From Sorghum bicolor (taxonomy: Eukaryota; Streptophyta; Magnoliopsida; Poales; Poaceae), in the NCBI RefSeq assembly GCF_000003195.3, contig NC_012879.2:36325596-36389595 (forward strand): 64,000 nt of DNA. The letters are read 5' to 3'. This document shows positions 27,006-59,561 of this stretch, piece by piece. Both the position numbers and the translations under genes were made by a program. Below the pieces are notes generated by a model that saw nothing but the letters and a program-made list of their open reading frames with translations, had not been told where the DNA came from and made no database searches. How positions within the stretch are numbered: the stretch's first letter is position 1; every line of letters starts with the position of its first letter.

Positions 27006-27010
27006 CACAT

Positions 27011-28368: not shown

Positions 28369-28657
28369 CGGATTGTTGACTCACTGGCGTATGTGTCTTC
28401 TTACTTTTGAAAAGATCTTTCCAATTAAAGTTGACGTGACGGGGTCTCCTGACGATATGTCAGACGGATGCATGAAAAGTTGCACCTGGCAACTGTACAA
28501 CCGCTCTTTGCATGGTTTGAGAAAAGGAAACCATCAATTGGTACGAAAACTCCACCGCATTAATTGTCTATAATCATTGTAAACCGAAACGCCGCGTCCG
28601 CCGCATGGCCTGCCCACTTCCCGAGAATACAGGAAGTGGGAGAGGTGGGGTCGCAGG

Positions 28658-28666
28658 TTTATAAGG
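28658..28666 (+). promoter_or_regulatory. TATA box of the antisense gene in element C
   Basis: TTTATAAGG on the plus strand lies 120 bp before the ATG at 28778, in a GC-rich context (GGGGTCGCAGG upstream). It is well placed for an internal promoter that drives the antisense gene independently of the LTR. This is inferred from position only. Confidence 0.55.
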
Positions 28667-28777
28667 GCCTAATAGGTCTGCCTGTACTGCTTCGCCTGCC
28701 ATTGCCTTCAAACCTTCCGCTCTCATCTTCTCCAATCTCCTGCATCTTCCTAACTCCAGCCCACATTCGCACCTCTA

Positions 28778-31700
28778 ATGGCGAAGAGCGACTCCAGGAA
28801 GAGGGCCGAACTGATGGCCAAGGAGTGGAAGAAGTCTCGCAGTACCACAAAATCTCTTGGTGACCTCGTCGATATGGGGCTTCTGCACGGCGCAGAGCTC
28901 GGCGGCTGGAGGGCACCGGAGGGGGAGAGCTACCCCGACCCTCGCGCCGGTGAGATCGTCGTTTTTGAAGATTTCGTTAAGAGAGGCTTTGGTGTTCCTG
29001 TTCATCCTTTTCTTCAAGGTCTTCTTTTGTACTATGAGATCGGGATTTGCAATCTGCACCCGAACTCAATTCTCCTTATTTCCACCTTCATCCACCTGTG
29101 CGAGGCCTATGTTGGCATAGAGCCGCACTTCGATCTTTTCCGGTATCTTTTCTGCTTGAGGAAGAAGGGAGCAGTTGGAGGCTCCAAGGTTGCAGGTGGA
29201 GTATACCTCAACCTTCGTGATGGGATGAAGAATCGCTACCTGCACTGCCCATGGAACACTTCCTTGACCGAATGGTACAGGAAGTGGTTCTACATCAGGG
29301 AGGAACCGGGCAGCTCCACGTTCTGCGACGTGGGATACGTTCCCGAGAAGAGGGCGAGCTGGACCGACCGTCCGGAGTTCGATGGTCCAGTGGCGGATCT
29401 CATGAAGCTGATCGACTGGTCGCGCCTAGACGGGCTTGGCGTGGTCGGCAACTTCATTTGCCGCCGGGTGATGCCCTGCCAGAAGAGGGTGCACTCGGCG
29501 TACGAGTATGCCGGAAGCGCAGACCCGACCAGGATGCGGTCGGAGATCTTGGAGAAAGCGGAGGTACAACAGCTGTTGAACGAGCTGTTTAACTTCGCGG
29601 ATGGGGGCTTCATCCGTGGCAGTGACCGGGTGCAAGCCTTCAAGTTAGGACGACCAGCACCAAAGGTATGTAGCAGATTCTGTTTGATCATTCGTATATC
29701 GTCTGCAGTTAACTCATCTCTGTTGCTTTTGCAGGTCGGTGATGTCGACCGGTGCGCAGTGTATGTATCACTGGCACCGGGGATGGAAGATCCTGTGGGA
29801 GAGGTCCCGCCAGAGGAGGACGCTGCTCGGTGTACTCATTACACCAGCAGTGAGGAAGACCGAGCCCGCCCCGTCCCGACCTCCGAGGAGAGGGTAGCGG
29901 GGAAAAGGCCATTGCCGGTAGATCCTTTGCCGACACCGGAGCTGCCGGCAGATCTACCGGCGGAGAGCAGCCAAGCGCCGAAGCTTCGTCGGCTCGTGCG
30001 GATCGTCGACGACGACGACGACGAGGAGGCTGCGCCGTCGTTGGTCCGACGGCCTCGGAGCCGCCCAGACACTGCGCCGGTCGCCACTGATCGAGTGGCC
30101 AGCGGCGCCGCTGCCCCGCAAGTTGTCGAGACGGGGGCACAGGTGCCGACCGGCCGGGCGAGGAGGAGGTTCACTGCGACCCACCGTCGGTCAGACCTGT
30201 AAGTGTTCGACTTACGTATTTTGGACTCCTTTTTTTTTAACTTTTGTTCCCGTAGTGCGGCATCGGATGTCGACCCTGGTCAAACTGCCAGCCAGGGAAC
30301 GGGCGAGCCTGCCCGCGGTTCTGGGGATGCGGCCCCCCAGACCACAGAGCAGCCAACAGCTGCAGTCGCGCCTGGGAGCACCGAGGGGCTCCCGAGCGCG
30401 GCGCCGACTACAACAAGCAGCCCGACCAGGGCTGGAGAGGCTCCCCCAACTGACTCCTCGGAGAAGGGAAGTTCTCCGACCGCTCCTCCTGCCGGGGGGA
30501 GTGAAGTCCCCCCGCCGCCCCGAGCAGGAGCCTCTTCGGCTGCGGGCTCCCCAGGTCTGGTCCAAGGGCCAGTAATGCCTGGGACCACCACCGGGGGTGA
30601 CGCAGCACAGGAGGAGGAAACCCGGGCGGCCTCCGATGACGAGGTGGAGGAGATCGAGGGTCGTCCCCGTGATGGCCGCCAACACGTGTATGTGTGGCGC
30701 CAACGCGGGGATCACTTTATCGGTCATGAGGAGCTCGCCGAGACCGAAGAGGCCGCCAGGGTGGAGCGCGCGGCCAAGCGCCTTGTCGATGAAGTCAAGG
30801 TAAGCGGTTTTTTGTACTGCTGCGAATTCTTTTGCCTTGTCTTGCTTGATCGTTATATGCTTGCTTTGTAGGACGTAATGAAAACGGCGAAGTACCGGAA
30901 ACGGTGCTTTGACCAGATAGAAGGCGTCATGGCCGAGAACAAGGCCCTTGCCGCGGAGGTAGACCGGTTGCGGGCGGAGGTCGGGGAGAAGGTGGTCGAG
31001 ATGAGTGCCGTGAAGGAGCGTCGTCTCGACCTCGCTCGTCGTCTGGCCGACTAGTACCGGCTGCAGGAAGGTTAGTCACACGCTCCGAGCAGTTTCGCAT
31101 ACTTGTATAGTTTGCAATGCTGACCAGTTTAGGATTCATGCAGACTTGGAGGAGGAGGTGGCGAGCCTCCAACAAGAGAAGGAGCAGCTCAGCCAACAGC
31201 TCGCCGGTGCGCAGGAGTCCGGGCGGCGAGCAGAAGAGGAATTGGGTCGAAAAGACCGGGAGTTAGCTGGTAATGGGTGCCGCCTTGTTGGTTGCTGCCT
31301 GCCCCTTTGCTTGTCTGGTATGCCGAAAGTAACGTTTCGTTTCATTTGCAGTGCTCAAGGTGAACACCAAAAAGCACCTGGATGACCTGATCAAGGACCG
31401 GGACTCCTGGAAGGCCAACTGTTGCAGGATCTGGAAAGGAGTGTCCCCGGTCCTAGATCTAATCAGTCCCGAGCTCCCGGAGAGCCAGCCCCGCGCGCCG
31501 CAGTTGACCCCGGTCGAGAAGGCGCAACGGGCGTGGGACTGGCTCCAGCAGTTTGTGAAGGACGCCGGGGAGTTTGCCGGCGCGCACGTCCTCAGCATGG
31601 TGCGCGCCCACTACCCCCTGGTCGACTTGAGCAGGCTGGAGAAGGGGTACCCGAAGGAAGTCGGCCCACAGGAAGCGGACGAACTTCGGGGTAATCTGCT

Positions 31701-31926
31701 GGACTTGTCGTCGACGGTGATCGGCGACATCAATCTGTGCGGAACGGCCACTCCTCCAGACCAGCCGAGCTCAGATAGGTCGGCCAGGGAGTTGTCGGGC
31801 GCGTCCGTTGCGGGAGATGGGCGGTCGACGCCTGCGGTCTCGACCAGCCAGGCGCCGGTGGCCCCAACCCCTTCGTCCGGGCAGCAGGGCCAGGCGGGTG
31901 ATCAGCCCGAGCAGCTAGGCCAATAA
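28778..31926 (+). CDS. Antisense multi-exon gene of element C, PF04195-like protein with coiled-coil tail
   Basis: Six exons are proposed from GT-AG sites that keep one frame: 28778-29665, 29735-30198, 30256-30799, 30872-31070, 31144-31269, 31352-31926. The N-terminal ~130 residues (GEIVVFEDFVKRGFGVPVHP, LHPNSILLISTFIHLCEAYV, FDLFRYLFCLRKK) match what I know of the grass 'putative gypsy type transposon' family PF04195. The middle is Pro/Ala/Ser-rich with an acidic run (VDDDDDEEA). Exons 4-6 form a charged coiled coil (AENKALAAEVDRLRAEVGEK, then EEEVASLQQEKEQLSQQLAG). An in-frame TAG at 31052-31054 in exon 4 would truncate the protein before most of the coiled coil. The gene runs opposite to pol and ends 277 bp from it. 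Its function is unknown; the introns and private TATA box suggest a captured host-like gene. Intron 2 is unusually short (57 bp). Confidence 0.75.
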
Positions 31927-32003
31927 AGTAGTCTGTAGGAATAGACTAGTGTTTGCCCGTCAGGGTATTTATTGTAAACTTTGTATGTAAAGTTTGTAAT
32001 AAA
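31922..32003 (+). terminator. Polyadenylation signals of the antisense gene in element C
   Basis: AATAAA occurs at 31922-31927, overlapping the stop codon, and again at 31998-32003 in a T/G-rich stretch (GTAATAAAGTTTGC). The second is the likelier signal. The region 31927-32203 between the two convergent genes is otherwise non-coding. Confidence 0.5.
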
Positions 32004-32203
32004 GTTTGCTTTTTGTCATGACTATTGTTTTGAGCGCTGTAAGAATATCTGAGTGACATGTCACCGCATTTGTCTTGGTTGTCGCTAAGAGCATCCGTTG
32101 CAGGAGTTTTGCCAAGTGCTGTGTGTGACAAGGTATGGGCCAAAAATAGAGAATTTCATTATCAAAAATTATAAGATACTTACAAAAGAAAGTCATTAAA
32201 ACT

Positions 32204-35200
32204 TTATGGATAGAAACGTCGCAGTTTGTCGATGTGCCAAGAGTTAGGCACTCGTGTTCCGTCTGGGTATGCCAATCTGTAGGACGTAGGTCGTGTGACC
32301 TCGGTCACCACGAAGGGTCCTTCCCAGGGGGTGGATAGCTTGTGCATTCCCTCCTGGCTTGTTTTCCATCGAAGCACCAGATCGCCGACCACGAAGGAAC
32401 GGTCCTTGACATTCCTGTTGTAGTATCGCCTGACTGCTGCGAGATATTTTGCTGTTCGGAGACACGAAACTAAACGCTTTTCCTCCATGCAATTGATTTC
32501 GAGTTCTCTGGCGTTGTCGGCGGTCGCCTGGTCGAAATGCTCGATTCTAGGAGATCCGAAGTGTATGTCAGACGGCAAGACCGCCTCTGCACCGTACACC
32601 ATGAAGTAGGGAGACACCCCTGTGTTTCGACTGGTCTGAGTTCGGAGGCCCCAGACCACTGCCGGCAATTCTTTCATCCATCGACCGGGTGCTCTGTCGT
32701 TTTCGGTGTACAGCCTTTTCTTTAGGGCGTCGACGATCATTCCATTAGCACGTTCAACTTGACCGTTGGCACGTGGATGTGCCACTGACACATATTTTAT
32801 GACTATGCCTCTGTCATCACAGAAATCCCAAAAAGTGGTGCCAGTAAACTGAGTGCCCAGGTCGGTGATTATGCTGTTCGGGATGCCGAATCTGTGTATG
32901 ATTTGATTGAGGAACTCCACAGCCTTCTCGGAGGTTGCCTTGACTAGGGGCATGTATTCAATCCACTTGGAGAACTTGTCGATTAACACGAAGACAAACC
33001 TGAAGTTGCCCGGGGCTGGTTTAAATGGTCCGATCATGTCAAGCCCCCAGCAAGCAAAGGGCCAAGATGATGGGATGGTTTGAATTTCATGGGCAGGTAC
33101 ATGGGTCCTCTTAGCGAAAAACTGACATCCTTCGCAATGCCGAACCAGTTTTTCTGCGTCGCCGACCGCGGTTGGCCAGTAAAAACCTGCTCGGAAAGCC
33201 TTTCCGACCAGCGTTCTAGATGCGGCGTGGTTGCCGCAGGATCCAGCGTGTATGTCTTCCAAGAGCTTGATACCATCATCTTGGGGTATGCACTTGAGCA
33301 GTACTTCGGAGCTTGCGTTTTTCCGCATGAGTTTCCCGTCGACCAGGATGTAGTTCTTTGATCGTCGGATAAGGCGCTCGTTCTCTGTTTTGTCCTGAAA
33401 GCCTGTCCCGTCTGATATGTATTTGATGAACGGGGTACGCCAGTCACGCCCACCGGTTGTCGGAGTGGCGTCATCTATGAGCATTGCCTCGGTGGGTTGC
33501 TTGTCGACCAGGGGGGAGCCTACGCTCGGCTCATGGATGTCCTGGACGAAAATACCCCGCGGAATTTGGGCCCGAGAGGAGCCTAACTTTGACAACGCAT
33601 CTGCTGCTTGGTTCTTATCCCGGACCACGTGAATGTACTCTATGCCATAGAAGTTAGTTTCCCATTTGCAAATTTCTTTGCAGTAGAGATCCATCTTCTC
33701 GTGGGTTGCGTCCCACTCCTTGTTGAGCTGGTTGATGACCAAAGCGGAGTCGCCGTAGACATAGAGGCGCTTGACCCCCAGTTCAACGGCTAGTCGTATG
33801 CCATGCAAGCATGCTTCGTATTCGGCGACGTTGTTTGACGCCGGAAAAAGGATCCGAAGGACGTAACGGAGTTTGTCCTTGTTGGGTGATACGAACAATA
33901 TCCCAGCGCCTGCACCGTTGATGTTCAAGGACCCATCAAAGAACATTGACCAGTGGTCTGAGACATCTGGAACGGAAGGCTCGTTGAGATCCGTCCATTC
34001 GGCAATGAAATCGACCAGGGCTTGAGACTTGACAGTGGTGCGATTCTGGAATTCCAGGGAAAATGGACATAATTCCATTGCCCATTTCACGATTCTGCCA
34101 TTGGCGTCTTTATTGCGCAGGATGTCCCCGAGAGGAAAGCTGGTTGTCACCAGGACTCGATGGCCGTCGAAGTAGTGCTTCAGCTTTCTTGACGTTATCA
34201 GGATGGCGTATATAAGCTTCTGTATTTGTGGGTATCTGGCCTTGGATTCGTTTAAAACTTCGCTTATGAAGTAAACGGGTCTCTGGACCTTGAAGACGTG
34301 ACCTGGTTCATCTCGCTCGACCACTATTGCCGTGGAAACAACCCTGTCGGTTGCAGCAATGTAAAGGAGTAGGTCTTCATTGGGCTGAGGCGCTGTGAGG
34401 ACAGGCGGTGAGGTGAGGAAGGTCTTAAGCTGAGTGAACGCAGCGTCGGCTTCCTCTGTCCAAGAGAATTTTTCTGACGCTTTCAATAGTTTGAAGAAGG
34501 GGAGGCCTTTTTCTCCCAGCCTTGAGATGAAACGACTGAGGGCGGCCATGCATCCGGTTAGCTTCTGAATATCCTTGACGTTCTTCGGTGGTCGCATATC
34601 GAGTACGGCCTTGACTTTTGCAGAGTTTGGTCGTATGCCGTCGCGACTGACGACGTTGCCGAGCAGTAGACTGGAAGGAACGCCGAAAATGCATTTCTTG
34701 GGGTTGAGCTTCCACTTGTACCTATTGAGTGCCTTAAAGGTTCGGTCTAAGTTGTCGATTAGGGTGCTCGCGTACCTTGTTTTTACGACCACGTCGTCCA
34801 CATAGGCCTCGACGAGGTCATCGCGAATCTCGTCGTGGAGGCATTGCTGGATGGCCCTTTGATAAGTGGCCCCGGCGTTTTTAAGTCCGAAAGACATGGT
34901 AGTGTAGCAGTATGCGCCGAAGGGTGTGATGAAGGATGTTTTGATCTGATCTTCTTCCTTTAACGAGATCTGGTGATAACCAGAGTAGCAATCTAGAAAG
35001 GAGAGGAGTTCGCATCCGGCCGTTGAGTCGACCACCTCGTCGATGCGAGGGAGACCAAAAGGATCTTTAGGACAGTGTTTGTTGAGATCGGTGTAATCAA
35101 CGCACATTCTCCATTCATTATTCTTTTTGCGTACAAGAACCGGATTGGCGAGCCAATCGGGATGATACACTTCTTTTATGAATCCGGCTGCTAGAAGCCA

Positions 35201-35640
35201 TGTTATTCTGTCCTAATAGCCTCCTTTTTGTCACGAGCGAACCGTCGCAGTTTTTGCTTGATTGGTCTTGCGGTCTTCGAGACGTTTAAGGAGTGCTCGA
35301 TCAGGTTTCGTGGGACACCGGGCATGTCTGCGGGTTTCCATGCGAAAACGCTCACGTTGTCCCTTAGAAACCTGACGAGCGCGTCTTCCTATTTTGGATC
35401 CAGGTTAGCCCCGATGAGGGCTGTCTTCTCGGGGTTGCCTTCGACCAGCTGCACTTCTTTGTACTCCCTGGATTTCGAATTCTTTCTGGCTGTCTCCTGC
35501 TCAGGTAATCGGAGCTGGTCGGGAGGCAGCTGTGCGGCTTGGTTTGCTGTTTCCGCCATGCGGATTGAGAGGTCAATTGCCTCGGTGATCTTGAAGCTTT
35601 CTTCTTCGCAGGTGTACGCGGTGTAGACGTTGCCTCTGAT
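32204..35640 (-). pseudogene. Element C pol: reverse transcriptase, RNase H, integrase
   Basis: A long uninterrupted frame covers 35170-32204 (988 codons). RT motifs include [42 protein letters not shown] and the catalytic YVDDVVV. RNase H has [36 protein letters not shown] and ADALSKL, the D-E-D-D residues. Integrase has the finger residues CEGCQFF and the triad Asp (LDMIGPF), Asp (ITDLGTQF), Glu (NGQVERANG). The pre-RT part upstream (35640-35171, with LIEHSLKVSK) is readable only across a TAG at about 35387 and a frameshift at about 35200-35220. There is no protease before it. The enzyme domains therefore look intact but could not be made from a normal gag-pol protein in this copy. Confidence 0.9.
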
Positions 35641-36356
35641 GGTTAGGACACCCTTCTCCGGGGGGGGAATATCGGGAATCGGTCGAAACCCGGAGGGTGC
35701 GAAGGAAAATCTAGGTCGTAGCCCTCGTCCTCGGTGTTTATAACCTCGGTGGGGACGGAGCCGGTGCTTGAGTTGGTGCTGGAAACCTGGCCGTCCCGTA
35801 GCTCTCGGATTGTCACCATGTTGACATGGTGACGATTGTTCCTTGTCGGCGACCAGCCTGCTTTGCTGAAAACGGATTGGACATGTTGTGAGTAAACAGA
35901 GGCCGAGTTGTTCAGGCCGCAAGGATAGTCTTCCTTTTTGAGCTCGACGGATCATCCTGAGGGGGTTGAGGTTATCGTCAGGGACGTTCCCAGCCATTCG
36001 TGCGTGGTGACACGAGTTGGCCGGCGGGATTTCGAAAAATCCGCTCGAGCAGCTTGGTCGGGGCGGCGCAGAACTCCATCTATTAGTTGGGAGACTTCGA
36101 GTAGCTTGGAGTCAGCGCGATCGAGCGCTTGGAGGAGGTCCGAGCAGTCGATCTCCTTTCCCTTGTAGAGTGGGAACGGTGGTCGGGAGCTTGGTGCCGT
36201 CATGCGTGTGGTCGGAGACGACGTGATCTCAGATTGGATCTGGATCTCTTTCGGAACCGTGGTCGCGAAGCCGCCGCTGCACGTCGTCCACGTGATCTGG
36301 CCGACGGTGAACGTGAGGCCTTCGGGCACGGTCGCGGAAGCTGGGATCGTGACCAT
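35641..36356 (-). pseudogene. Element C gag remnant
   Basis: The minus-strand start at 36356 (MVTIPASATVPEG) follows the primer site. The first ~135 codons are open (with PPFPLYKGKEIDCSDLLQ) and end at a stop at about 35952; frames are disturbed after that. The capsid core, zinc knuckle and protease expected before reverse transcriptase are absent, as only about 1.2 kb separates the LTR from RT. The family normally has a gag of several hundred residues plus a protease, so a large internal deletion is inferred. Confidence 0.7.
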
Positions 36357-36385
36357 CTCGTTCGCCGGAGAAGTTGCACGCACAC

Positions 36386-36403
36386 CCCCTACCTGGCGCG
36401 CCA
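36386..36403 (-). other. Primer binding site of element C (tRNA-Arg type)
   Basis: On the minus strand TGGCGCGCCAGGTAGGGG begins one base after the 5' LTR. It is complementary to the 3' end of a plant tRNA-Arg (CCCCTACCTGGCGCGCCA, as I recall it), a primer used in the Tat/Ogre group. Confidence 0.75.
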
Positions 36404-36404
36404 C

Positions 36405-36864
36405 TGTCGACGAAAGCTGGTCGGCAGTCTACCTTGGGGTATACCCACGGTAGTAGTTTATCGGTAGACGGTGCGCAAACTACGAACTCGATGGTGACGC
36501 AAGACACGGACAAGCTTTTTATCCAGGTTCGGCCGCCGAGTTGGCGTAATACCTACGTCCTGCGTCTGGTTGTATTGATTTGTGCTGAGAGAATATGATG
36601 TCCTAGGGGGGTCCCTTGCCCCTCCTTATATAGTCTGGAGGGCAGGGTTACAGATCTAGAAACTAATCCTAGTCGGTTACAATTGCCATAGATAATTCGA
36701 TATCAATTCCTATTCTAACCGACTAGAATCCTGCTTGATCTCCACGTCTTGTTTCCTTGCGCAAAACTCCGAGCTGTCGGATCAAGCCTTGAACTCGTCT
36801 CGTAGTGAGCCAAGCTTCCTGGCTGAAGTCTAGCCGTAAGGGTATAGGGGTTTATACCCCCACA
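36405..36864 (-). repeat. Element C 5' LTR
   Basis: It is the 460 bp direct copy of 27011-27470 with one mismatch. As the element reads on the minus strand, this is the promoter-bearing 5' LTR; its TATA-like motif lies at about 36625-36638. Confidence 0.95.
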
Positions 36865-47168: not shown

Positions 47169-47848
47169 TTTTGATGCAAAACTGATCTGCAAACACAAAG
47201 GGCTAATACCCGATTCAAACGTTAAGGCGTGCCAGCCGATTTGACCTTGCTATCGGCAAAGGTGATAACTCGAATACTTTAGTCCTGACAACAGCGATGC
47301 GCGCGGATGTCACGGCTAAGAGGTACTCACGCGGAACTTGAGAACACGCCGAGCTTAAGTCGACGAATTCCTAAGAACTCGTAACAAAAGGAAAAAGTAT
47401 GACGAAGTCGTCGAAAAGTAAATGCTGGAATATGAGTAAAAACGTGTGTTTGAATCATTGATTGATTTTTTATTACAAGGCCCTAGGGTCTATATTTATA
47501 CCCTGCTCAAAGAGCTACAACCAGACACGATTAGAATTCGAATTCCAAATTACACGGAATCCGTATACAAAACGATGCAAATAATTAAGGAAATAACAAA
47601 ACTATCCCTCGTGACAAACCGAAACTCCTCCACATAACGACCGGCAGCTTCCGGACTCCCTCTTTGCATCATCAGCAGACCCTTTGCCATAGTCATCGGC
47701 AGACTTTCTTATCTAGCCATCGGCACCATATTACTGCCTGTGGACTTAGTCACGTTCAACTTCTCCCTCATCGGCAACCCACTTTGTAAACATCGTACTG
47801 CCACCTTATCCTGCCATCCTAGACACGTGCCCAAAAACGGTGTCAACA
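47169..47848 (-). repeat. Element D 3' LTR, 680 bp
   Basis: It runs from TTTTGATGC (a mutated TGTTGATGC) to GGTGTCAACA. It lacks the 16 bp ATCATCCTCATCGGCA duplication of the other copy. Next to it on the minus strand the polypurine tract reads CTGGGGGGCATG (47849-47860). Confidence 0.93.
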
Positions 47849-48331
47849 CATGCCCCCCAGTTTCGGAGTATAAAACTATTAATGCTCCGAAATTCTCTGC
47901 AGTAATGATGCCTTTTCCCGCAATTAATGCTCCTAATCTGGTAACCGACAACCTCAATCTGAACAACTCTGATCCTATTCCTCCGCAGATTTCTCGAAAT
48001 CTCCAACTTCCTAAACGGGCATTTTTCTCAGTCGTACATCGGCAACAATACCGTTACAAAGATCTGCCGATGTTCTGACCAGGATATTCGCACAAACGGT
48101 TACTTCCCCTCTATCCGCCCATCGGCAATATGACCGTTATAGAATATTGCCGATGGACCGACCAGGAGATCTCGCACAGTAAAATATCTTCAGATAATGA
48201 CCGCTTCCCATCAAATCACCTGCACAATCCCTGGATTACCGTGCGAACAGTTACCATATCCATCTGAGTACCCTCGGATTTCTCGGATGCAGCAAAGAGA
48301 TAAGTCGAATTTGCCCTTGCCCATTTTGTCC
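47849..48331. other. Element D spacer between 3' LTR and antisense gene
   Basis: Non-coding. It holds the polypurine tract for the minus-strand element (47849-47860) and several GCCGAT/ATCGGC words (48037, 48066, 48121, 48149). It presumably includes the promoter region of the antisense gene. Confidence 0.7.
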
Positions 48332-48339
48332 TATAAATA
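48332..48339 (+). promoter_or_regulatory. TATA box of the antisense PMD gene
   Basis: TATAAATA lies 150 bp before the proposed ATG at 48489, in the sequence GTCCTATAAATAGTTCC. It is a good match to a plant TATA box and has no role for the minus-strand genes. Confidence 0.6.
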
Positions 48340-48488
48340 GTTCCTTCTTGGGTACTCCTTCCCCATCACACCATTCTACTACCCAACTTTACTTTTCCAG
48401 CGGCGGCGCCACCAAAATCTCCCAAGGTCTCCGACAAATACCCCTCTTCACCAACTCCGGCGCCTTCAAACGCTTCCTTCGCAGCAAG

Positions 48489-51400
48489 ATGGCCGTCGGG
48501 TTCGTCGTCCCTGAGATCAAATCTCCACCCCGTCTTCTGTATTTTTCTTCATATCCCTGTTCACTCGCAATTCATTTTACTGAACATCTTCCTTTTCTTT
48601 CCTCTTTGTATTTCTTTTTACGCCCAAAATCACTAGGAATTGTCCAACAAAATTGTCATCCCCACCGATCAACCACACCTTCAATGCCTCGGCCCTCTAG
48701 GGGACCCAGATCCAACTGACCTTATCAACGCAGAAACCAACAGGATCCCCTTCAGAGCCGAAAATTTTTCCTTAGATCTGTGGAAGGACACCTTCCGCTC
48801 TTGGCCCAGCCCAACTGTAGGGTGGAAAGACTAGTTCTTGAGGGTCAGCAACTCTAATGAAGTTCAGTGAGGTGAAAGGAATCTAGCCCAATGCATTAGA
48901 TTGTCCATTGCCGATATGCATAGGAACGAGTCACTGCTGATAGCTGCATCCTACTTTTGGTCAGACACCCTCAATGCTTTTTCCTTTGGCCACGGCCCTG
49001 CTTCTCCTACTCTTGCCGATGTAGCCATGCTTACTGGTCTAGATATATCTTCTGCCGATAGCACCCACTTTTTTGATACTGCCCCTAGTGCCAAAGTGGA
49101 GACTCGCGCTATCGGCGGTTGGTCGGGGTACATTCAGAAGTACCGTGGGAAAGGATCTGTCACCATAAAGGAACAAACCACCTTTCTGAACATGTGGCTG
49201 GACAAGTTTGTATTCTGTGGTCGATCGGCAGGACCGACTTCTGTCTACCTATCGGCAGCAGAAAGACTGGCTAACGGTGGCCGATTCCCTCTCGGCCGAT
49301 ACTTGCTTGGCGCTGCTTACCACCTTCTCCATCAAGTAGCCCAGAAACTTCTGCTCGGCCAATCCACTGGCAACTTGGGAGGCCCCTGGTGGTTTGTCAA
49401 CATGTGGCTCAATCTGCATCTGCACAAGCGTCTCAACTTCAACCTGTTCACACAGCGTTTCCCAAGAGATATAGCTGAAAACCATGTATTGGGTGAAGAG
49501 GAATCGGCAACACGCGCCCCCTTGAACTTTGGCAAAGCTGTCATAGTTCTGCCTGGTTCAGGGGGTAATCCAGATCAGATCGGCCGATTCTTCCAGACTC
49601 TGTATGAGGGTTTGACCAGAGACGAACGACCATGGTTGGCTTATGATGACCCAGATAGCATACTCCCTCTGACCTTCAATCCATTTGATGAAGCTCTCGA
49701 CAGGGACAATGAGGCGATGATGGCAATTGTGACTCCCAGAATCATTCTAGTGAATTTCTTTGGTAGCACAAAAATCTCCCCTCAAACTTACGAATTTTAC
49801 AATCCATCGGCATTAGCTCGCCAGTTAGCTTTCGGCCAGTTGCCGATTGCACTTCCTTATGCCGATGTGATAAAACCCAGAGAAACTATCAACAACCTTC
49901 TTGAGTGGACTCGAGCAGCCCAACTACCACCAAACGCCGATATAGATGTAGATCTGTCAGAATGGGTTCCGGCTGCTTTTATCACTCAGGCATACAAGTT
50001 ATGGTGGGCAGAATGGAAAGAGCATCTATTCTGCAGATCGGCACTTTCATACCGCGGCATGATTGACTCCGAATACGAAGTTCCCGATGACACTGTAAGT
50101 AACTCAAACCAACGTTTCATTTTCTCAATATTACCTCCATCGGTAGCTTACCCTTGTATTCTTTTTGCAGGTTGACAATATTCCTCCATTGGTTAGCAGG
50201 AGTGGCAGGCCGATCGACTTGTTTCCATCAGGCCCGATTTCCTCAATCGGCCACAATGCTCCCACTCTAGCTTCCATCATGCATCGGGGTGTACGCCTCA
50301 GGAAAGTCACCACCAGAAGAACCCAGACATCACCAACGGTAGCTGCTCCCACTCTTGCGCGGGCTTTCAAGGCAATTTGTCAAATCTTTTCCTTTATGCT
50401 GATTATCTTTATATCGGCTATATTTATGCTTATAAACTCTTGTTTATTATTGCAGCAAACCGGCGCATCGGCGAAAGCCAGGTGTGAGAGTACCGATGCC
50501 CCCCAGTCTAGCCAACCCAAGAGAAAGGGCACCACGGGTGCTAAGACTGGAACAAAGCGCCAGAAGGTAGCAACTCCCCCTCCTCCTCCGGTATCTCCAA
50601 TTCCGGTGGAGTCTTCTCCTTCTTCTCCAGAAGCCCAGCCACAGCAAGCACCATCTCCCCCACCTATGCAGGAAGCACCACAGATAGAAGAACCCCAACA
50701 GGAAGGATCTCAAACAGAAGATACATCAGCTGACATGGGTGAACAAACAACTGGCCCGGTGGGTCCAGTTATACCATCGGCAGTTCTCCCGATTCAGACA
50801 ACCGTTGTCCCTCCTCCAGGTAACATACTTTAACAATATCGCTACCGATGAACTTATTCTTATTTAGTCTCATAACTCCTTTTGTCTTCTTTCAGTTGAT
50901 ATCGTTCCATCGGCAATCTCAGCCGATCAACCTGTAGCTCCATCGGCATCTTTGGCCGATCAGCCCGCAGCTCCGTCAGCACTTCTCAGTCAAAGACAAG
51001 AGATCGCTTTGAAGCAAGTAAGTCACCGTTTACCGTTAGCACTATTTGCCGATTCTCTGAGTATGAGCTAATTTTGCTTTCCCTCCCAGGAACAAGATTC
51101 TCCCGATAGCCTGTTCTCCTTCGCCATCGATCTCTCTGAAGAAGAAGGTGAAGAAGCAATCTCTTCTCAGACGGTCGGCATCACATCGGCAGAGATCAGG
51201 GTCAGGCTGGAAGAATTGTCAGCTCTCCTTCACCAGGACACAGCGCAATTGGTTGATGATTCCGACCCTACCAAGACCCTGTTCAGAACTCTCAGAGGCC
51301 AAATCCCAGCCGATGTTGAAGAAATCCTGTTCCAAGCCGCTCATCTGGAGAGTCGCCAGCTGCAGTACCAGAGAGCTTCTCGGCGTCTTGCCGATAGAGC

Positions 51401-51785
51401 CGCTCAGACTCAACTCTCCGATGAAATGAGGAAAGAGAAGCTTTTGACCGATGAGAAGCACAAGAACATCGGTATCCTGAGATCTTCTGGAGACGCGCTG
51501 AAGCAGAAGATATCCGATCTATCGGCAAGAAAAGAATCCCTGTTGGCGGAGCTCAAGGAAGTAGAGAACGCTCTGTCCCAAGCCCAACAGGAAGAGAGAC
51601 AATTGCCAGAGACCATCAGGCTTCTTGAGCACGAGCGAAATGCTCATGGTCGCAGGGCACTTCAACTGAAGAAGAAACTGAAGCCGATAGAAGGTTCTGC
51701 CGATGATGACATCAAGGAGATAGAAGGAGCCAACCAAATTCGGCTACGCGCTATATCGGCAATCCAGACGCTGCTTAACACATAG
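48489..51785 (+). pseudogene. Antisense plant mobile domain (PMD) gene of element D, two in-frame stops
   Basis: Proposed exons: 48489-48515, 48637-50094, 50171-50371, 50456-50819, 50896-51017, 51090-51785; phases agree at each junction. Exon 2 encodes a PMD (PF10536-like) region: YFWSDTLNAFSFGHGP, TLADVAMLTGLDI, WWFVNMWLNLHLHKRL, FNPFDEALDRDNEAMM and YEFYNPSALARQLAFGQLP. Later exons are Pro/Ser/Gln-rich with a basic segment (KRKGTTGAKTGTKRQK). The last encodes a coiled coil (SDEMRKEKLLTDEKHKNIG onward). TAG at 48832-48834 and TGA at about 48868-48870 interrupt exon 2. The donor of intron 1 reads GAG/ATCAAA, a lost GT, and intron 3 has a GC donor (AAG/GCAATT). Host PMD proteins MAIN and MAIL1 act in transposon silencing and genome stability; the role of transposon-borne versions is unknown. 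Confidence 0.78.
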
Positions 51786-51938
51786 AGTTTCCATCGGCAT
51801 TATATCTGCGCTTTCCTGCTTCCTCAGCTTTTAGTCTAGCCGATAGGACTGTTATCGGCACCTAAACTTTTGAAACACCAAGTCTTGTCCCCAAGCATTT
51901 GGATCCAGCCGATAGGAGTGTTATCGGCACCTAAACTT
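51786..51938. repeat. Intergenic spacer with 69-bp direct duplication
   Basis: The 32-base block AGCCGATAGGASTGTTATCG (and following) occurs at 51838 and again at 51907, 69 bp apart. Each copy has one GCCGAT and one ATCGGC facing each other. The spacer separates the convergent ends of the antisense gene and pol. Confidence 0.8.
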
Positions 51939-54900
51939 CTATGCATCGACCCATATACTGGGGTAGTACTTCTTTAAATATTTGCCGTTTAATGCTCTGG
52001 GAAATTCAATTCCTTCGAGGGTTTCTAGAATGTAGGCATTACCAGGAGCCGATCGACTTATCCGATAAGGACCCTCCCAATTAGGAGACCACTTTCCAAA
52101 CTTCGAACTTTTGGTCCCAATCGGTAAAATTAATTTCCATACCAAATCCCCATCGGCAAACTCTTTAGCCTTCACTTTCTTATCATACCATCTAGCAACT
52201 CTCTTCTTATTTTCTTCTATACTCATTAAAGCTTTTAACCGATGCCCTGCTAGATCGTCCAATTCATCGGTCATCAAAGTGGCATAACCATCGGAAGTTA
52301 ATTGATCTTGAAAAGATAATCGCCTAGATCTAGCCTTAATTTCCCAAGGCAACACTGCATCATGTCCATACACCAATTGATAGGGTGATACTTTGGTCGA
52401 TCCATGACAAGCCATCCGATAAGACCACAATGCTTCATTTAATAATGTATGCCACCGCTTAGGATTTTCTTCAATCTTTCGTTTAATAAGCTTGATAATT
52501 CCTTTGTTAGACGCTTCGGCCTGCCCATTGGCTTGAGCATAATAAGGAGAAGAATTCAACACTTTAATTCCATACCGATTGCGAATTCATCGAACTCCCC
52601 CGATGTGAACATGGTGCCCTGATCGGTAGTAATCGTTTGGGGAATCCCAAATCGGTAAATAATATGCTCCTTCACAAAATCAATCATATTGGCCGATGTG
52701 ACTTTCTTCAAAGGAATAGCTTCAACCCACTTAGTGAAATAGTCAGTGGCAACTAGAATGAACTTATGCCCTTTGCTAGATGGTGGATAAATCTGGCCGA
52801 TCAGATCGATGGCCCATCCCCGGAACGGCCAAGGCTTTATTATAGGATTCATAGCCGATGCGGGTGCTCTCTGGATATTACCAAACTTTTGACAACCCTG
52901 ACATCCCTTGAAATATTTAAAACAATCTTCAAGTATGGTTGGCCAAAAATATCCATTCCTTCGAATCATCCACTTCATCTTAAAAGCTGACTGATGCGCT
53001 CCACACACTCCTTCATGGATTTCCCCCATCAAACTTCTAGCTTCATCATCACCCAAGCATCGGAGAAGAATTCCGTCGATAGTTCGATAATACAATTCAT
53101 TTTCAAGGAGCACATACTTGGTTGCTTGAAATCGAACCCGTCTTTCAACTTTTTTGGATGGATCTTTTAGATAATCAATAATTTCTTTCCTCCAATCACC
53201 GGCACCGACTGCCGATGTCGCATTATTCATTGGCTGATATCCCGAGGCATGCTGAGCTAACAAATTAGCGTCTTCATTATGCAATCGGGGAACATGCTCC
53301 AATCGGAAATCCTTGAATTCCTTTAACAGTTGCATACTTCTCTCGAAATAAGTTATGAGAACTTCACTTCGGCATTCATAGCTTCCGGCCAATTGATTTA
53401 TAACCAACATAGAATCCCCGAATATTTCAACAGCATCAGCACGAACTTCTCTTAACAACTCCAATCCCTTGATCAGAGCCTGATACTCAGCCTGATTATT
53501 TGTTGATGTGGCAACAATCGGCAAGGAGAACTCATACTTCCTCCCCTTAGGGGAAACTAATACAATGCCGATTCCTGCCCCCCGGTCACAGGTAGATCCA
53601 TCAAAGAAGAGCGTCCAGGGTACAATTTCCAAGGTTTCCACTAGACCGCAATGCTGAGTCACAAAATCGGCCATAATCTGCCCTTTGACTGCCTTAGCCG
53701 ATTCGTAACGCAAATCGAACTCCGATAGCGCTAAAATCCATTTACCGATCCTACCACTCATAATCGGCATAGATAGCATGTATCGGACCATGTCATCTTT
53801 GCAAACAACAGTGCATTCGGCCGATAACAGGTAATGTCTCAGCTTGATACATGAAAAATATAAGCATAAGCATAGTTTCTCAATGGCCGAATACCTGGTT
53901 TCAGCATCAATCAACCTCCTACTCAAATAATAAATTACCCTTTCTTTCCCTTCAAATTCTTGAACTAAAGCTGAACCGATAACCGATCCATCGGTAGATA
54001 AATACAATCTGAAGGGCTTCCCTTGTTGAGGTGGAACTAGAACTGGAGGATTTACTAGATACTTCTTGATTTCATCCAGAGCCAACTGCTGTTCTTCTCC
54101 GCAAATAAACTCTTGATCGGCTTTCAATTTAAGAAGAGGACTGAAAGCACGAATCCTACCAGACAAATTTGATATAAATCTCCTGATAAAATTTACCTTG
54201 CCGATCAAGGATTGGAGCTCGGTTTTGTTGGTAGGGGCCACTATTTTATTGATGGCATCAATAGATCTTCGACTAATTTCAATACCTCTCTGATGTACCA
54301 TGAAACCAAGAAACTGCCCTGCCGATACACCAAATGCACACTTGTTGGGATTCATCTTCAATCCATGCTTCCTTGTGCACTCTAACACTTTTTGTAAATC
54401 GGCAAGATGCTTTGAGAAATCTCCAGACTTAACCACCACATCATCAATATAAATCTCCACGAGCTTGCCGATGAACTCATGTAATATAAAATTCATAGCC
54501 CTTTGATAAGTAGCACCAGCATTCTTCAACCCAAAAGTCATGACTATCCATTCAAATAGCCCAACATGACCAGGACACCTGAATGCGGTTTTTGGAATAT
54601 CCTCCTCCGCCATGAATATTTGATTGTAACCTGCATTACCATCCATGAAGCTGATGACCCGATGACCAGCCGCAGCATCAACCAGTAGATCGGCGACAGG
54701 CATTGGGTATCCATCCATCGGCGTAGCTTTATTGAGATTCCTGAAATCAATGCACACCCGAAGCTTCCCGTTCTTCTTGTAAACCGGAACAACATTGGAA
54801 ATCCACTCGGCATACCGACACTGCCGAATAAACTTAGCTTCAATAAGTTTGGTGATTTCGGCCTTAATATCAGGTAGAATGTTAGGATTACATCGGCGGG

Positions 54901-55171
54901 CTGGTTGCTGATGTGGCCAAAATCCAGACTTGATGGGTAACCGATGTTCAACAATTGATCGGTCTAAACCAAGCATCTCGGTATAATCCCAAGCAAAGCA
55001 ATCTTTATATTCCTTTAACAAACTAGTCAATTGTTGCTTACTCTCAGGATCTAATTTAGCACTAATAAAAGTAGGCCTAGGCTTATCACCACTACCTATA
55101 TCTACTTCTACCAAATCATCGGCCGATGTGAATCCCTGGCCTAATTTTTTATCATCGGCGAATCTATCCAT
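51939..55171 (-). pseudogene. Element D pol: reverse transcriptase, RNase H, integrase with one frameshift
   Basis: The frame 55171-52556 (871 codons) holds RT (NNV-type [44 protein letters not shown], catalytic YIDDVVV), RNase H (LFFDGSTCDRGAG, NNQAEYQALIKG, FGDSMLVINQL) and the first half of integrase (CQGCQKF; Asp in AIDLIGQ; Asp in TTDQGTMF). A frameshift at about 52556-52562 moves to the frame 52562-51939, which holds the rest (PYYAQANGQAEASNKG with the catalytic Glu, then NWEGPYRI). The start ATG overlaps the gag stop as TAATG. Except for the one frameshift all catalytic residues are present, so this was an active element until recently. Confidence 0.92.
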
Positions 55172-58100
55172 TAAACACCGTCGTCAGAACCGACTGCTTG
55201 GATCGGTGGAATCTCATAATCGGCGACTTTGAGAAAATCTTTCTCCCAAACTTCTCCTGAAATGCACCTGGTCCTTTCGTAAGTATCCGCTTCTGCCGAT
55301 GCGATAACATAAGAAGAATCTCCTGGGACAATCTCAATCTTGTCACCTACCCACTGAACCAAGCATTGATGCATTGTAGATGGGAAACAACAATTGGCAT
55401 GAATCCAATCTCTTCCCAATAATAAGTTGTAAGCACCTTTTCCGCTGATCACGAAAAAAGTTGTCGGCAAGGTTTTGCTGCCGATGGTCAACTCTGCACA
55501 TATCGCCCCCTTGTCTGGAGACACGTTTCCTTCAAAGTCTTTGAGCATCATATCGGTCTTGGTCAAATCTTGATCCCCTTTCCCAAGTTTCCGATATACT
55601 GCATACGGCATAATATTAATAGCAGCTCCACCATCAACTAGGATCTTGGTCATTGGCTGCCCATCAACCCTTCCTTTGAGGAACAGAGCTTTAAGATGCT
55701 GCCTCTCGTCATCGGCAGGTTTCTCAAAGATAGCCGTCATTGGATCTAGAGCCAACTGAGCTATCTGATCAGAAAATTCCAACTCATCATCACTGGCTGG
55801 TGCAAGAAACTCCATCGGCAACATGAAGACCATGTTGACGCCTGCCGATGGACCTTCCCTCTTAGTGTCTGACGGCTGCCGACTTCCAGAGTTCTCTCCC
55901 TTGTTTAGCTCTTCTTGCCTTTCACGTTGCAATCTCCTTTTCTGTGTCTTGGTTAATCCTCCAGGGCACCATGGAGGAAGTGGCCTTTGCCTTGCCGTCG
56001 GGCGTCGGTTCTCCCTTGACTCCATACGATGCGTGTTAGCATCCCTGCAAAATATGAATTCATCGGGAACCCGCGCATCAGCCATTTCCTCGAGCTCTTC
56101 TTGGTTCCTGGGAAAATACTGGACACGGTCACTAAGTCTGTCGTGCCCACTAAATCTGCCCCCCAGCCGGTCATGAACTGACACCCTTCCTCTGATCGGC
56201 CCATTAAATCGCCGTTCATCATCATGATAATGCCGATCGATCCTATCGTACCGATCATAACCGTTGCACTCAGGGCAGTCTCTGACAGTAGGAAGCTTGA
56301 TATTTTCCTCCCAACAATGGATGAAGAATGGACAATTCCAATGATCCCTGTGCCGATTCCACTCCTGTCGGCGTCCTTCTTCTTCCCGTTGATAATCTTC
56401 CTGCTGGCGCCGATACCGATCTTCCCGTTGTTGCCAATTTTCTCGAGGCCTTCTATGAGTTATGACGATACCAGATCGAGGAGGCCTTCCTGAGCTAGTT
56501 CCTCCCTGGACCAAGCCCTTACTTCTTGCATCGGCAGTAGTAACTTGATGCTGAGGATCTACCGATGCACTCTTCTCAGCTGTCTCCGATGTTAAGACCT
56601 TAGCCTTCCCCTTAGCATCCAACATGTTTGTCGGGAAAGGATGTTGGTCTATCTTCATCGGCTTCTGGGCTTTGGAACTGTCACACTTGATTCTCCCTGA
56701 CTCTATAGCCGATTGCAGCTGCTGTCTGAATACTTTGCACTCGTTGGTGTCATGGGAAGTTGCATTATGCCACTTGCAATATCTCATCCTCTTCAACTCT
56801 TCTGCCGATGGGATCACATGGTTAGGTGATAGTTTGATCTGACCTTCCTGAAGTAGAAAGTCAAATATCCTATCAGCCTTAGCGGTGTCAAAAGCAAACT
56901 TCTCTGGTTCCTTCTGCCCAAAAGGACAAGACATCGGCTTCTTGTTTTTTACCCACTCTGCCAAGCCGATTACTGGTTCTTCATCAGAATCTAAGCTTGT
57001 TGCTTCATCGACAAATGACACTTTCCTATTCCATGCTCTTTTAGGCTCGAAAGGCTTGATGTCTTGATCAGAAATCCTCTGCACCAAATGACTTAAACTT
57101 TCGAACTCCTGAGAGGCATACTTATCCCTGATATGTGGCAACAAACCCTGGAAAGCCAAATCGGCTAGCTGCCGATCATCCAGAACCAAGCTATAGCATT
57201 TATTCTTGACCTCTCGTATCCTCTGCACAAAACCCTCAACCGACTCATCATTACGTTGCCTCAACTTGACCAAGTCGGTGATCTTCTTCTCATGAACCCC
57301 CGAGAAGAAGTATTTGTGGAATTGCTTCTCTAGATCGGCCCAAGTAATTACTGAGTTGGGAGGTAATGATATGAACCAAGTAAAGGCCGATCCAGACAAT
57401 GATGATGAAAATAGACGAACCCTCAATTCGTCCCTGTTACCAGCCTCTCCACATTGAATGATGAACCTGTTGACATGCTCCATGGTTGACGTGTCGTCCT
57501 GCCCGGAAAACTTTGTAAAATCCGGTACCTTGTACCGATGTGGAAGCGGGATCAAATCATACGCGGGAGGATACGGTGTTCGATAAGAGTAAGTGTTGAC
57601 TTTGGGTTTTATCCCAAATTGTTCCCTCATTACTTCAGCAATCTTATCGGCCCAATATGCATCGGCATCTTGCCGATGAGGCGGCTGCGGATCTGGCACT
57701 TGGTGGCGAACCTCCACGTGTCTGTTCGGGACGTGATCTGCACGGAACATTGTATTGATCACCTGTCCTCCAATCTGCAGACCACCAAACTGCTGTCCAC
57801 CGATTGGCTGTCCTCCGAGTTGCTGTCCAAAATTCATTGGCTGGTTGGGAATCCCCTGACCTTGGAACCCGGGATAGACCTGCCCTTGCTGGAACCCTGT
57901 AGTCTGGTAACTCTGCTGGGGCGATTGTGGAAAGGCTTGCTGTCCAAGCCATCCATTATTAGCGTTCATCGGCATAGGTGCTGCCGATGATTGGTAATTG
58001 GGTACCGTCGTTGAATTGACATACCCCGACTGGGCCATAGACCTCTGTTGCATCAGCATTGACTCTGCCGATGCGTTGGGCATCTGGAACATTGAATCTT

Positions 58101-58818
58101 GAGGATTTCTAGTGTGAGGCCTTGCAGTAGTAGTTGTGGTATACCGAGGACTCTGGTTCACCGGCGCATTGGGAGGTGCCGATGTCATAGGAGTTTTGCC
58201 CCTCATGTCAGTTATTTGTGATGTTCCCGGTGTCAACTCTGGAGGCATACCGTAACCCCACCAGTTGGGAGGAAGAGTCAACCCTGACATTGCCGATGCC
58301 AACATATCTGTTGTCAGTTTATGCTGCCCAACTGAAATTTGTGGGTTGGTTGTCATCGGCATAGATAGTGCACCAGTAGTCCCCGATGTACTTGGAGGGA
58401 TGGCAGATTGTGCACTTGCAGTCGTCAAGGCAGCCGATGGAGCCGTGACCTCTGGTGCCGTTGGCTGATGATGGGAGGGGCCCACATAATCTGGTGGGAT
58501 TTGTCCTTCCTTGAAAGTTCTTGCCACGGCATTGAAAACCGTATTAGACAGTACACCAGCTTGGTTAATCAACGCTCGATTGATGGCATTGTCAACCATA
58601 TCTTGAAGCTTGCCAGGATTGGCGTCAAAGGTAACCTGCCGTGGTGCCGGTAGTGCATCTTTCTGGACCACTTCGCCGCTCCTGTTTATGCTGAAAGACC
58701 TCAGGCATTGCTGCTTGAACTCTTCCATGGCTTGGGCAATAGCTTGCTTCTGCTCATCCTTGAGGTTGGCCTCCGTCACGGGGATGACGTTCTCTTGATC
58801 GAGGTCAGAGATCGACAT
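55171..58818 (-). CDS. Element D gag-protease polyprotein
   Basis: The start at 58818 (MSISDLDQEN) is preferred to the upstream in-frame codon at 58893, which lies in the LTR/primer-site region. The 1215-codon product has a Pro/Gln-rich low-complexity N-terminal third (QQFGGLQIGGQ-type repeats). A Retrotrans_gag capsid core follows at about residues 430-600 (VPDFTKFSGQDDTSTMEHVN, LSGSAFTWFISLPP, KLRQRNDESVEGFVQR), then a Cys/His segment (MRYCKWHNATSHDTNECKVF) and an Arg-rich stretch. A retropepsin sits near the end (ILVDGGAAINIMPY, LLLGRDWIHAN) with D-G-G as active site. The ORF is open throughout. It should assemble particles and cleave itself. The stop overlaps the pol start by one base. 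Confidence 0.9.
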   Translation of the reverse strand: MSISDLDQENVIPVTEANLKDEQKQAIAQAMEEFKQQCLRSFSINRSGEVVQKDALPAPRQVTFDANPGKLQDMVDNAINRALINQAGVLSNTVFNAVARTFKEGQIPPDYVGPSHHQPTAPEVTAPSAALTTASAQSAIPPSTSGTTGALSMPMTTNPQISVGQHKLTTDMLASAMSGLTLPPNWWGYGMPPELTPGTSQITDMRGKTPMTSAPPNAPVNQSPRYTTTTTARPHTRNPQDSMFQMPNASAESMLMQQRSMAQSGYVNSTTVPNYQSSAAPMPMNANNGWLGQQAFPQSPQQSYQTTGFQQGQVYPGFQGQGIPNQPMNFGQQLGGQPIGGQQFGGLQIGGQVINTMFRADHVPNRHVEVRHQVPDPQPPHRQDADAYWADKIAEVMREQFGIKPKVNTYSYRTPYPPAYDLIPLPHRYKVPDFTKFSGQDDTSTMEHVNRFIIQCGEAGNRDELRVRLFSSSLSGSAFTWFISLPPNSVITWADLEKQFHKYFFSGVHEKKITDLVKLRQRNDESVEGFVQRIREVKNKCYSLVLDDRQLADLAFQGLLPHIRDKYASQEFESLSHLVQRISDQDIKPFEPKRAWNRKVSFVDEATSLDSDEEPVIGLAEWVKNKKPMSCPFGQKEPEKFAFDTAKADRIFDFLLQEGQIKLSPNHVIPSAEELKRMRYCKWHNATSHDTNECKVFRQQLQSAIESGRIKCDSSKAQKPMKIDQHPFPTNMLDAKGKAKVLTSETAEKSASVDPQHQVTTADARSKGLVQGGTSSGRPPRSGIVITHRRPRENWQQREDRYRRQQEDYQREEEGRRQEWNRHRDHWNCPFFIHCWEENIKLPTVRDCPECNGYDRYDRIDRHYHDDERRFNGPIRGRVSVHDRLGGRFSGHDRLSDRVQYFPRNQEELEEMADARVPDEFIFCRDANTHRMESRENRRPTARQRPLPPWCPGGLTKTQKRRLQRERQEELNKGENSGSRQPSDTKREGPSAGVNMVFMLPMEFLAPASDDELEFSDQIAQLALDPMTAIFEKPADDERQHLKALFLKGRVDGQPMTKILVDGGAAINIMPYAVYRKLGKGDQDLTKTDMMLKDFEGNVSPDKGAICAELTIGSKTLPTTFFVISGKGAYNLLLGRDWIHANCCFPSTMHQCLVQWVGDKIEIVPGDSSYVIASAEADTYERTRCISGEVWEKDFLKVADYEIPPIQAVGSDDGV

Positions 58819-58840
58819 GTTGATCTTGATCTTGAATCCT

Positions 58841-58858
58841 GTCCCACCAGGCGTGCCA
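58841..58858 (-). other. Candidate primer binding site of element D
   Basis: On the minus strand TGGCACGCCTGGTGGGAC begins seven bases after the 5' LTR, the expected place and start (TGG). I could not assign the tRNA with confidence. Confidence 0.6.
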
Positions 58859-58865
58859 AAAGATG

Positions 58866-59561
58866 TGTTGATGCAAAACTGATCTGCAAACACAAAGGGC
58901 TAATACCCGATTCAAACGTTAAGGCGTGCCAGCCGATTTGACCTTGCTATCGGCAAAGGTGATAACTCGAATACTTTAGTCCTGACAACAGCGATGTGCC
59001 CGGATGTCACAGCTAAGAGGTACTCACGCAGAACTTGAGAACACGCTGAGCTTAAGTCGACGAATTCCTAAGAACTCGTAACAAAAGGAAAAAGTATGAC
59101 GAAGTCGTCGAAAAGTAAATGCTGGAATATGAGTAAAAACGTGTGTTTGATTCATTGATTGATTTTTTATTACAAGGCCCTAGGGTCTATATTTATACCC
59201 TGCTCAAAGAGCTACAACCAGACACGATTAGAATTCGAATTCCAAATTACACCGAATCCGTATACAAAACGATGCAAATAATTAAGGAAATAACAAAACT
59301 ATCCCTCGTGACAAACCGAAACTCCTCCACATAACGACCGGCAGCTTCCGGACTCCCTCTTTGCATCATCAGCAGACCCTTTGCCATAGTCATCGGCAGA
59401 CTTTCTTATCTAGCCATCGGCACCATATTACTGCCTGTGGACTTAGTCACGTTCAACTTCTCCCTCATCGGCAATCATCCTCATCGGCAACCCACTTTGT
59501 AAACATCGTACTGCCACCTTATCCTGCCATCCTAGACACGTGCCCAAAAACGGTGTCAACA
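58866..59561 (-). repeat. Element D 5' LTR, 696 bp
   Basis: It runs TGTTGATGC to GGTGTCAACA. On the minus strand the TATA-like GGTATAAATATAG lies at about 59188-59200. It carries a 16 bp tandem duplication (ATCATCCTCATCGGCA at 59474-59489) that is absent from the other LTR. Confidence 0.93.

Follow-up and report, generated by a model that had tools for sequence, protein, structure and literature searches.

VANDAL transposons are Mutator-like element (MULE) DNA transposons with a VANC protein, and according to the available text of the source, the motifs of VANC21 lie mostly outside coding DNA and form tandem repeats that share one orientation (Hosaka et al. 2017; PMC5735166). Among long terminal repeat (LTR) retrotransposons, an antisense gene for TRP28 (PF04195) was reported in 97% of the Retand clusters surveyed (Vicient 2025). 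The role of the Tat/Retand antisense genes is called unknown in the available text of two reports, which describes tandem arrays of 8-100 bp in these elements and does not mention a dispersed word (PMC7264820, PMC11963269). Gypsy elements encoding a plant mobile domain (PMD) are also known (PMC9289625; Steinbauerova 2011 cited there). Here, we analyzed a 64,000-bp stretch of DNA, referred to as the window (C10:36325596-36389595 of the 709.12-Mb Sorghum bicolor genome), in which an LTR retrotransposon, element D (47169-59561), is filled with the word GCCGAT/ATCGGC and carries an antisense PMD gene. The findings suggested that this word is under selection and that the PMD product of the same element reads it, a joint claim to which we assign a probability of about 0.5; that the word is a selected protein-binding DNA site, whatever reads it, is predicted with much greater confidence.

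The word occurred 106 times in D (52 GCCGAT and 54 ATCGGC), against a mean of 5.19 (standard deviation 2.23, maximum 12) in 300 dinucleotide shuffles of the element, and the top count of any 6-mer in any of those shuffles was 32. The extended form TGCCGATG was found 38 times against a shuffle mean of 0.41 and a maximum of 3. The original prediction, made from the letters of the window, had proposed about 105 words on both strands where about 6 would be expected, at a spacing of one per 120 bp; the counts agreed with it, the mean spacing was 116.6 bp, and the positions it gave in the LTRs, spacer, introns, between genes, and in gag and pol were right within 0-2 bp. It had described the flanking copia and Athila DNA as nearly free of the word, and the remaining 51,607 bp of the window contained 9 words vs 15.9 expected from dinucleotides. 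The strongest word in 6-kb pieces of the window outside D reached a z of 9.8, compared to 28-31 for pieces within D. Sites were placed much as at random (coefficient of variation 1.09 vs 0.98) and formed no arrays, which ruled out tandem duplication as their main source, though one LTR has a slippage-like unit. The preference around the word extended to (C/T)T-GCCGAT-G, with flat flanks. Among the 18 one-mismatch neighbors, ACCGAT/ATCGGT stood out in D (25 vs 4.8), while CCCGAT (12 vs 6.0), GCTGAT (15 vs 8.2), and GCCGGT (7 vs 3.0) were mildly raised. The neighbor GCCGAC, presumably a DREB/CBF-type site, was not raised (4 vs 3.2), and the word was not taken for a DREB/CBF site.

Coding DNA carried the excess as well. 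Five coding regions held 76 of the 106 words, the others lying in LTRs, introns, and non-coding DNA, and each region was shuffled 500 times among synonymous codons. The gag-protease frame (55174-58899, minus strand) had 30 words vs 5.6 (maximum 13) in the shuffles, the pol frame (52559-55183, minus) 21 vs 3.6 (maximum 10), the PMD exon (48871-50173, plus) 16 vs 2.3 (maximum 7), and the coiled-coil open reading frame (ORF; 51072-51785, plus) 7 vs 1.2 (maximum 5); the excess in the short integrase tail (51942-52586, minus), with 2 words vs 0.5 (maximum 3), was not significant. All six strand and phase classes of the word were represented, and the four peptides that had been read at coding words were as stated. 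Codon bias and peptide repeats, which the original prediction had already discounted, were ruled out by the synonymous shuffles together with the occurrence of words in every phase and on either strand.

The word proved to be widespread, and its carriers form a clade. TGCCGATG occurred 129,594 times (64,990 + 64,604) in the 709-Mb genome, compared to 8,734 (4,400 + 4,334) for its reversed form, and pairs of copies no more than 20 bp apart were found 11,333 times vs 16. Eight sampled 4-kb stretches of the genome (two further ones were all N) contained 3 GCCGAT in 32 kb, so that no equal density was found in unrelated sequence. With the excess surviving dinucleotide and synonymous-codon shuffles and the word sparse in the sampled genome, neither of the two outcomes that would have undone the idea of a multiplied site was obtained. 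Twenty stretches of C1 were taken from the list of close TGCCGATG pairs, of which 18 held kilobases of a relative of D and two (L129 and L137) little beyond an LTR. The relatives aligned to D at 73-97% identity with 6.0-9.1 words per kb (8.6 in D; lowest in L131 and L144), while inserted or flanking DNA in these stretches mostly had 0-2 words per 1-kb bin. Two further loci, L159 and L160, were picked by a Panicum PMD search, independently of the word; they were about 75% identical to D and carried 26 (L159) and 19 (L160) words per 3 kb. The PMD exons of the word-sharing families were 67-81% identical to that of D. A dispersed recognition site multiplied inside one element family had been proposed; the selected site was upheld, but the single family was not, as the carriers are a clade of related families sharing one word. 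The word count corresponds to approximately 3,200 element equivalents, ca. 39 Mb, or 5-6% of the genome.

Comparison of these copies indicated that the word is constrained. Pairwise comparison with D, a check on other copies that had been called for, showed better survival of the word than of other 6-mers in every one of the 20 stretches. Retention was 75/85 words vs 0.58 of other 6-mers at 91% identity (L133), 60/83 vs 0.36 at 84% (L148), and 34/65 vs 0.28 at 80% (L131); the smallest margins were in L138 (96%; 76/85 vs 0.79) and L130 (97%; 79/84 vs 0.84). The protein-picked L159 and L160 retained 19/26 and 15/22 of the D sites, compared to 0.21 for other 6-mers. Picking copies by an LTR pattern may bias the LTR sites, but inner sites and the protein-picked copies are unaffected. 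Pooled over the 20 stretches, retention exceeded that of other 6-mers in the LTRs (0.87 vs 0.55), non-coding DNA (0.85 vs 0.40), PMD exon (0.83 vs 0.47), coiled-coil ORF (0.70 vs 0.42), gag-protease (0.81 vs 0.55), and pol (0.79 vs 0.65). At the word at 54717 (pol codons 154-156), D and the homologue P0121 have Met where the 18 other aligned homologues have Lys; of 16 copies covering this position, 8 no longer have the site.

The footprint of this constraint was narrow. Across eight distant copies and 95 non-LTR sites, identity at word positions 1-6 was 0.89, 0.92, 0.88, 0.93, 0.98, and 0.97, compared to ca. 0.82 in the flanks. The CpG within the word was kept at 0.88/0.93 vs 0.72/0.66 at other CpGs, and among 151 common 6-mers, the word ranked first in conservation and ACCGAT fifth. 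In ten young copies, private changes were found at 1/854 of word A and 3/791 of word T positions vs 356/42,695 other A/T positions. Strands were used equally, coding and non-coding context made no difference, and the footprint spanned 6-7 bases, which together pointed to a protein reading double-stranded DNA. The word could instead serve the RNA or complementary DNA (cDNA) stage, through Gag/nucleocapsid binding, GCCGAU-AUCGGC stems, nuclear import, or a guard against self-integration of the cDNA. The full-length transcript contains all sites; in folds of 300 nt, 40 of 101 words paired with a word of opposite orientation, and D folded slightly better than shuffles (mean z -0.88, compared to -0.18 for the flank). 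Folding of this kind is, however, a by-product of having both orientations present, and although adjacent sites were opposite in 61 of 105 cases, this is within chance. Equal orientations would be unusual for single-strand reading, and it is the strict word that is kept, rather than covarying stems, which makes a role at this stage quite improbable compared to reading on double-stranded DNA.

Sites also turned over. At least one other copy bore the word at 43 positions where D does not, in agreement with the expectation that copies gain sites at variable positions. In gag, site columns shared by over 75% of 17 copies made up 27/49 for the word vs 47/272 for 51 control words. Internal-branch gains in gag numbered 19 for the one word vs 118 for the 51 control words together. 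Such gains would also be expected of a functionless word that spread by mutational, slippage, or gene-conversion drive and was then inherited, and so would a slippage-like step such as the single 16-bp unit, carrying a word, by which the two LTRs of D differ. Losses by parsimony were not below those of the controls either (51 per 28.7 sites per copy vs 143 per 87.5). However, a functionless word that is simply inherited should disappear as fast as other 6-mers do, and the word survived at 0.68-0.73 vs 0.21 in the protein-picked copies; moreover, the constraint ends at the edges of the word. The Met under the pol word in D and P0121, where 18 other homologues have Lys, counts against this reading as well. 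We therefore regard functionless spread as very improbable. Some of the control words overlap the extended motif, and the word losses were mostly C-to-T and G-to-A; for these reasons, the losses of the word are read as decay after insertion, but the result still counts against a simple purifying picture.

The candidate reader is encoded by the element itself, on the strand opposite to gag and pol. The PMD frame matched PF10536 (E 4.6e-16) at 59.4 bits, above the curated cut-off of 34.9, placing it in the PMD family. A middle frame with a basic stretch (50147-50833, plus) was 35% identical over 146 residues to the middle of P0241, a predicted Miscanthus protein of 827 residues with a PMD and a basic middle, and the coiled-coil C-terminal exon (frame 51072-51782) was 67% identical over 232 residues to the C-terminus of P0241. 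Since the C-terminus and, more weakly, the middle of P0241 match frames of D, the antisense gene probably splices into a protein with a PMD, a basic linker, and a coiled coil, as judged from sequence. All 13 word-picked stretches extending into the antisense region had a PMD gene, as did L159 and L160, and 89 of the 97 best-scoring genome copies (the best 97 of 5,355 candidates) had a PMD without a stop. In Arabidopsis, the PMD proteins MAIN and MAIL1 are linked to a promoter motif in the available text of the report on them (PMC7156037). The PMD protein is a natural candidate because its gene adjoins the word in the relatives, mostly lacks stops, and includes a basic segment, and because of this tie between PMD proteins and a motif in Arabidopsis; that it is the reader is, in our judgment, about an even call.

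A host protein, such as a transcription factor, chromatin protein, or insulator protein, could read the word in its place, the element having multiplied a host site in order to recruit it. The constraint requires only some reader, element-encoded or not, and the word stayed constant across families in which the PMD exon has diverged from that of D, as a host reader would predict. A promoter role, however, would not require ca. 100 sites spread across coding DNA, words were fewer than expected in the rest of the window, and the DREB/CBF-type neighbor was at its expected level in D. A host reader was consequently considered unlikely, although less so than a role in RNA or cDNA or functionless spread.

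Alongside the loss counts, other results weigh against a selected word read by the PMD product. The first G of the word was no better kept than other positions, with private changes at 9/700 vs 376/29,720 other G/C. Word CpGs in resident copies decayed at 14/769 vs 53/1656 other CpGs (P = 0.06); strong standing protection of word CpGs from methylation was not seen, and the indication of protection from deamination is suggestive only. Resident copies still decay at word CpGs, and any standing protection must be weak at best. Every PMD-bearing relative examined had the same word, so the joint change of word and protein that would be the clearest sign of a reader was not visible. AlphaFold models of the antisense protein, with a predicted local distance difference test (pLDDT) score of 42 and 49, were too poor for a DNA-binding fold to be recognized, and no solved structural relative of the protein was found at E up to 1; Foldseek with the PMD models returned nothing below E 3.

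In the favored reading, TGCCGATG, with its core RCCGAT, of which GCCGAT is by far the commonest form, is a recognition site on double-stranded DNA, and selection on active lineages maintains its density from one end of the element to the other, in LTRs and coding DNA alike. Its most likely reader would be the element's own antisense protein, with its predicted PMD, basic linker, and coiled coil; simultaneous binding at many sites could let this protein label the DNA as self. The likeliest gain would lie in opposing the silencing of this element, or in some other control of chromatin specific to it, in the manner of VANC for VANDAL; anti-silencing as the purpose of the word is put forward tentatively. 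With ca. 39 Mb of word-bearing elements, any influence on methylation or chromatin might be considerable.

Element D is complete from end to end and seated in copia coding DNA. Its 3' LTR (47169-47848, minus; 680 bp, 5 words) has the ends TTTTGATG...TGTCAACA and the flank AAGGC, and its 5' LTR (58866-59561, minus; 696 bp, 6 words) the ends TGTTGATG...TGTCAACA and the flank AAGAC, giving a 5-bp target duplication with one mismatch. The LTR pair differed by 8 mismatches in 680 aligned bases and one 16-bp gap; the corresponding unit, with one extra word, is in the 5' LTR (59467) and absent from the 3' LTR near 47765, so that one site came or went in an event resembling slippage, either during insertion or later. 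Pfam found only gag, pol, and PMD in D: Retrotrans_gag (E 1.2e-13) and gag-asp_proteas (E 1.5e-6) in the gag-protease frame, and RVT_1 (E 3e-27) and rve (E 3.3e-11) in the pol frame, which covers reverse transcriptase, RNase H, and the integrase core. In this copy, the pol region is split over two overlapping frames (51939-52586 and 52556-55183), with the C-terminal part of the integrase in the other frame. Two 35-bp repeats (51835-51869 and 51904-51938), each with an inverted word pair, sit between the convergent pol and antisense genes. Pol relatives came from rice and Lolium (61-68% identity). With gag-pol of Ty3 type and an antisense ORF separating pol from the 3' LTR, as in the Ty3/gypsy Tat group, D is classed from its sequence as a Ty3/Tat-type LTR retrotransposon whose antisense gene is probably spliced. 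Pfam scans of three antisense frames gave PMD and no TRP28 (PF04195). P0001, a PMD protein 98% identical to the D frame with 135 member sequences from JGI metagenomes, probably derives from plant DNA in root or soil samples. The top PMD matches genome-wide (253-287 bits; G000:C8:1457888, C10:6673546, C1:16639901, and C5:61073639) are distinct from the D clade and are perhaps host genes or MULE-borne copies. No relatives of D were confirmed in IMG/VR and GTDB genomes; at least 120 IMG/VR stretches that matched a pair of words were set aside, and nine plasmid records were rejected as bacterial or archaeal reverse transcriptase or RNase H matches below 60% identity.

A neighboring Ty3 element in the window, element C (27008-36864; LTRs 27008-27470 and 36402-36864; pol on the minus strand), encodes TRP28 (PF04195, E 1.9e-22) and has a 70-bp array (28044-28367) with the array word AGTCCCCGAGC. 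Outside the array, CGACCAG occurred 17 times vs 1.5 on both strands, a weaker dispersed word than that of D, and CGACCA 29 times vs 5.5, with 11 vs 2.5 in pol (reached in 0/500 shuffles). A relative of element C (L161) had 3 GCCGAT in 6 kb, with AGTCCCCG 18 times and CGACCA 20 times, partly in 70-/80-bp arrays. Retention of CGACCA in one relative was not clearly raised (6/9 vs 0.57 of all 6-mers), and two other TRP28 loci (L162 and L163) had no CGACCAG-type word. The word of this TRP28-bearing element hints at lineage-specific words. A Tat-type self-marking code, in which each lineage has its own word on both strands and in all of its DNA, read by the protein of its antisense gene (PMD with RCCGAT; TRP28 with CGACCAG/AGTCCCCGAGC), is possible but doubtful, as the second word in element C is a weak basis for it.

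Short words kept against mutation on both strands, in coding and non-coding DNA, are familiar as the DNA uptake sequences of Neisseria and Haemophilus. Those words are in bacterial chromosomes and serve transformation, with no link to a transposon, while the word described here belongs to a transposon clade; among the open-licence PMC papers listed for the subject, titles and the openings of abstracts made no mention of the word in a transposon. D resembles the Retand/Tat elements (maize Grande, rice RIRE2, and Silene Retand) in an antisense gene flanked by pol and the 3' LTR, in element and LTR size, and in its Ty3 non-chromovirus pol, as far as these are described in the available text (PMC11963269, PMC7264820), but has PMD instead of TRP28. 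PMD is common to D and the PMD-bearing Gypsy elements, for which the available text reports no target word (PMC9289625). A conserved word beside a Tat/Retand antisense gene makes the question of that gene's role testable by a binding assay. If PMD reads the word, self-recognition by multiplied motifs would extend beyond MULE DNA transposons, a DNA target could be assigned to a PMD protein, and the reader may offer a natural sequence-specific DNA-binding module. The likeness to VANDAL/VANC that the original prediction had drawn stood in its logic and not in its anatomy. As in the described part of that system, a short motif is dense in one transposon group, many times more so than in the rest of the genome, and adjoins a non-transposase gene. 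However, D is a Ty3 LTR retrotransposon with PMD rather than a MULE with a VANC protein, and its sites occupy coding as well as non-coding DNA, face either way, and form no tandem arrays, whereas those of VANC21 are mostly non-coding tandem repeats of a single orientation. Because D departs from VANC anatomy and does not contain the VANC protein, we did not class it as a VANC system, although it may still work like one.

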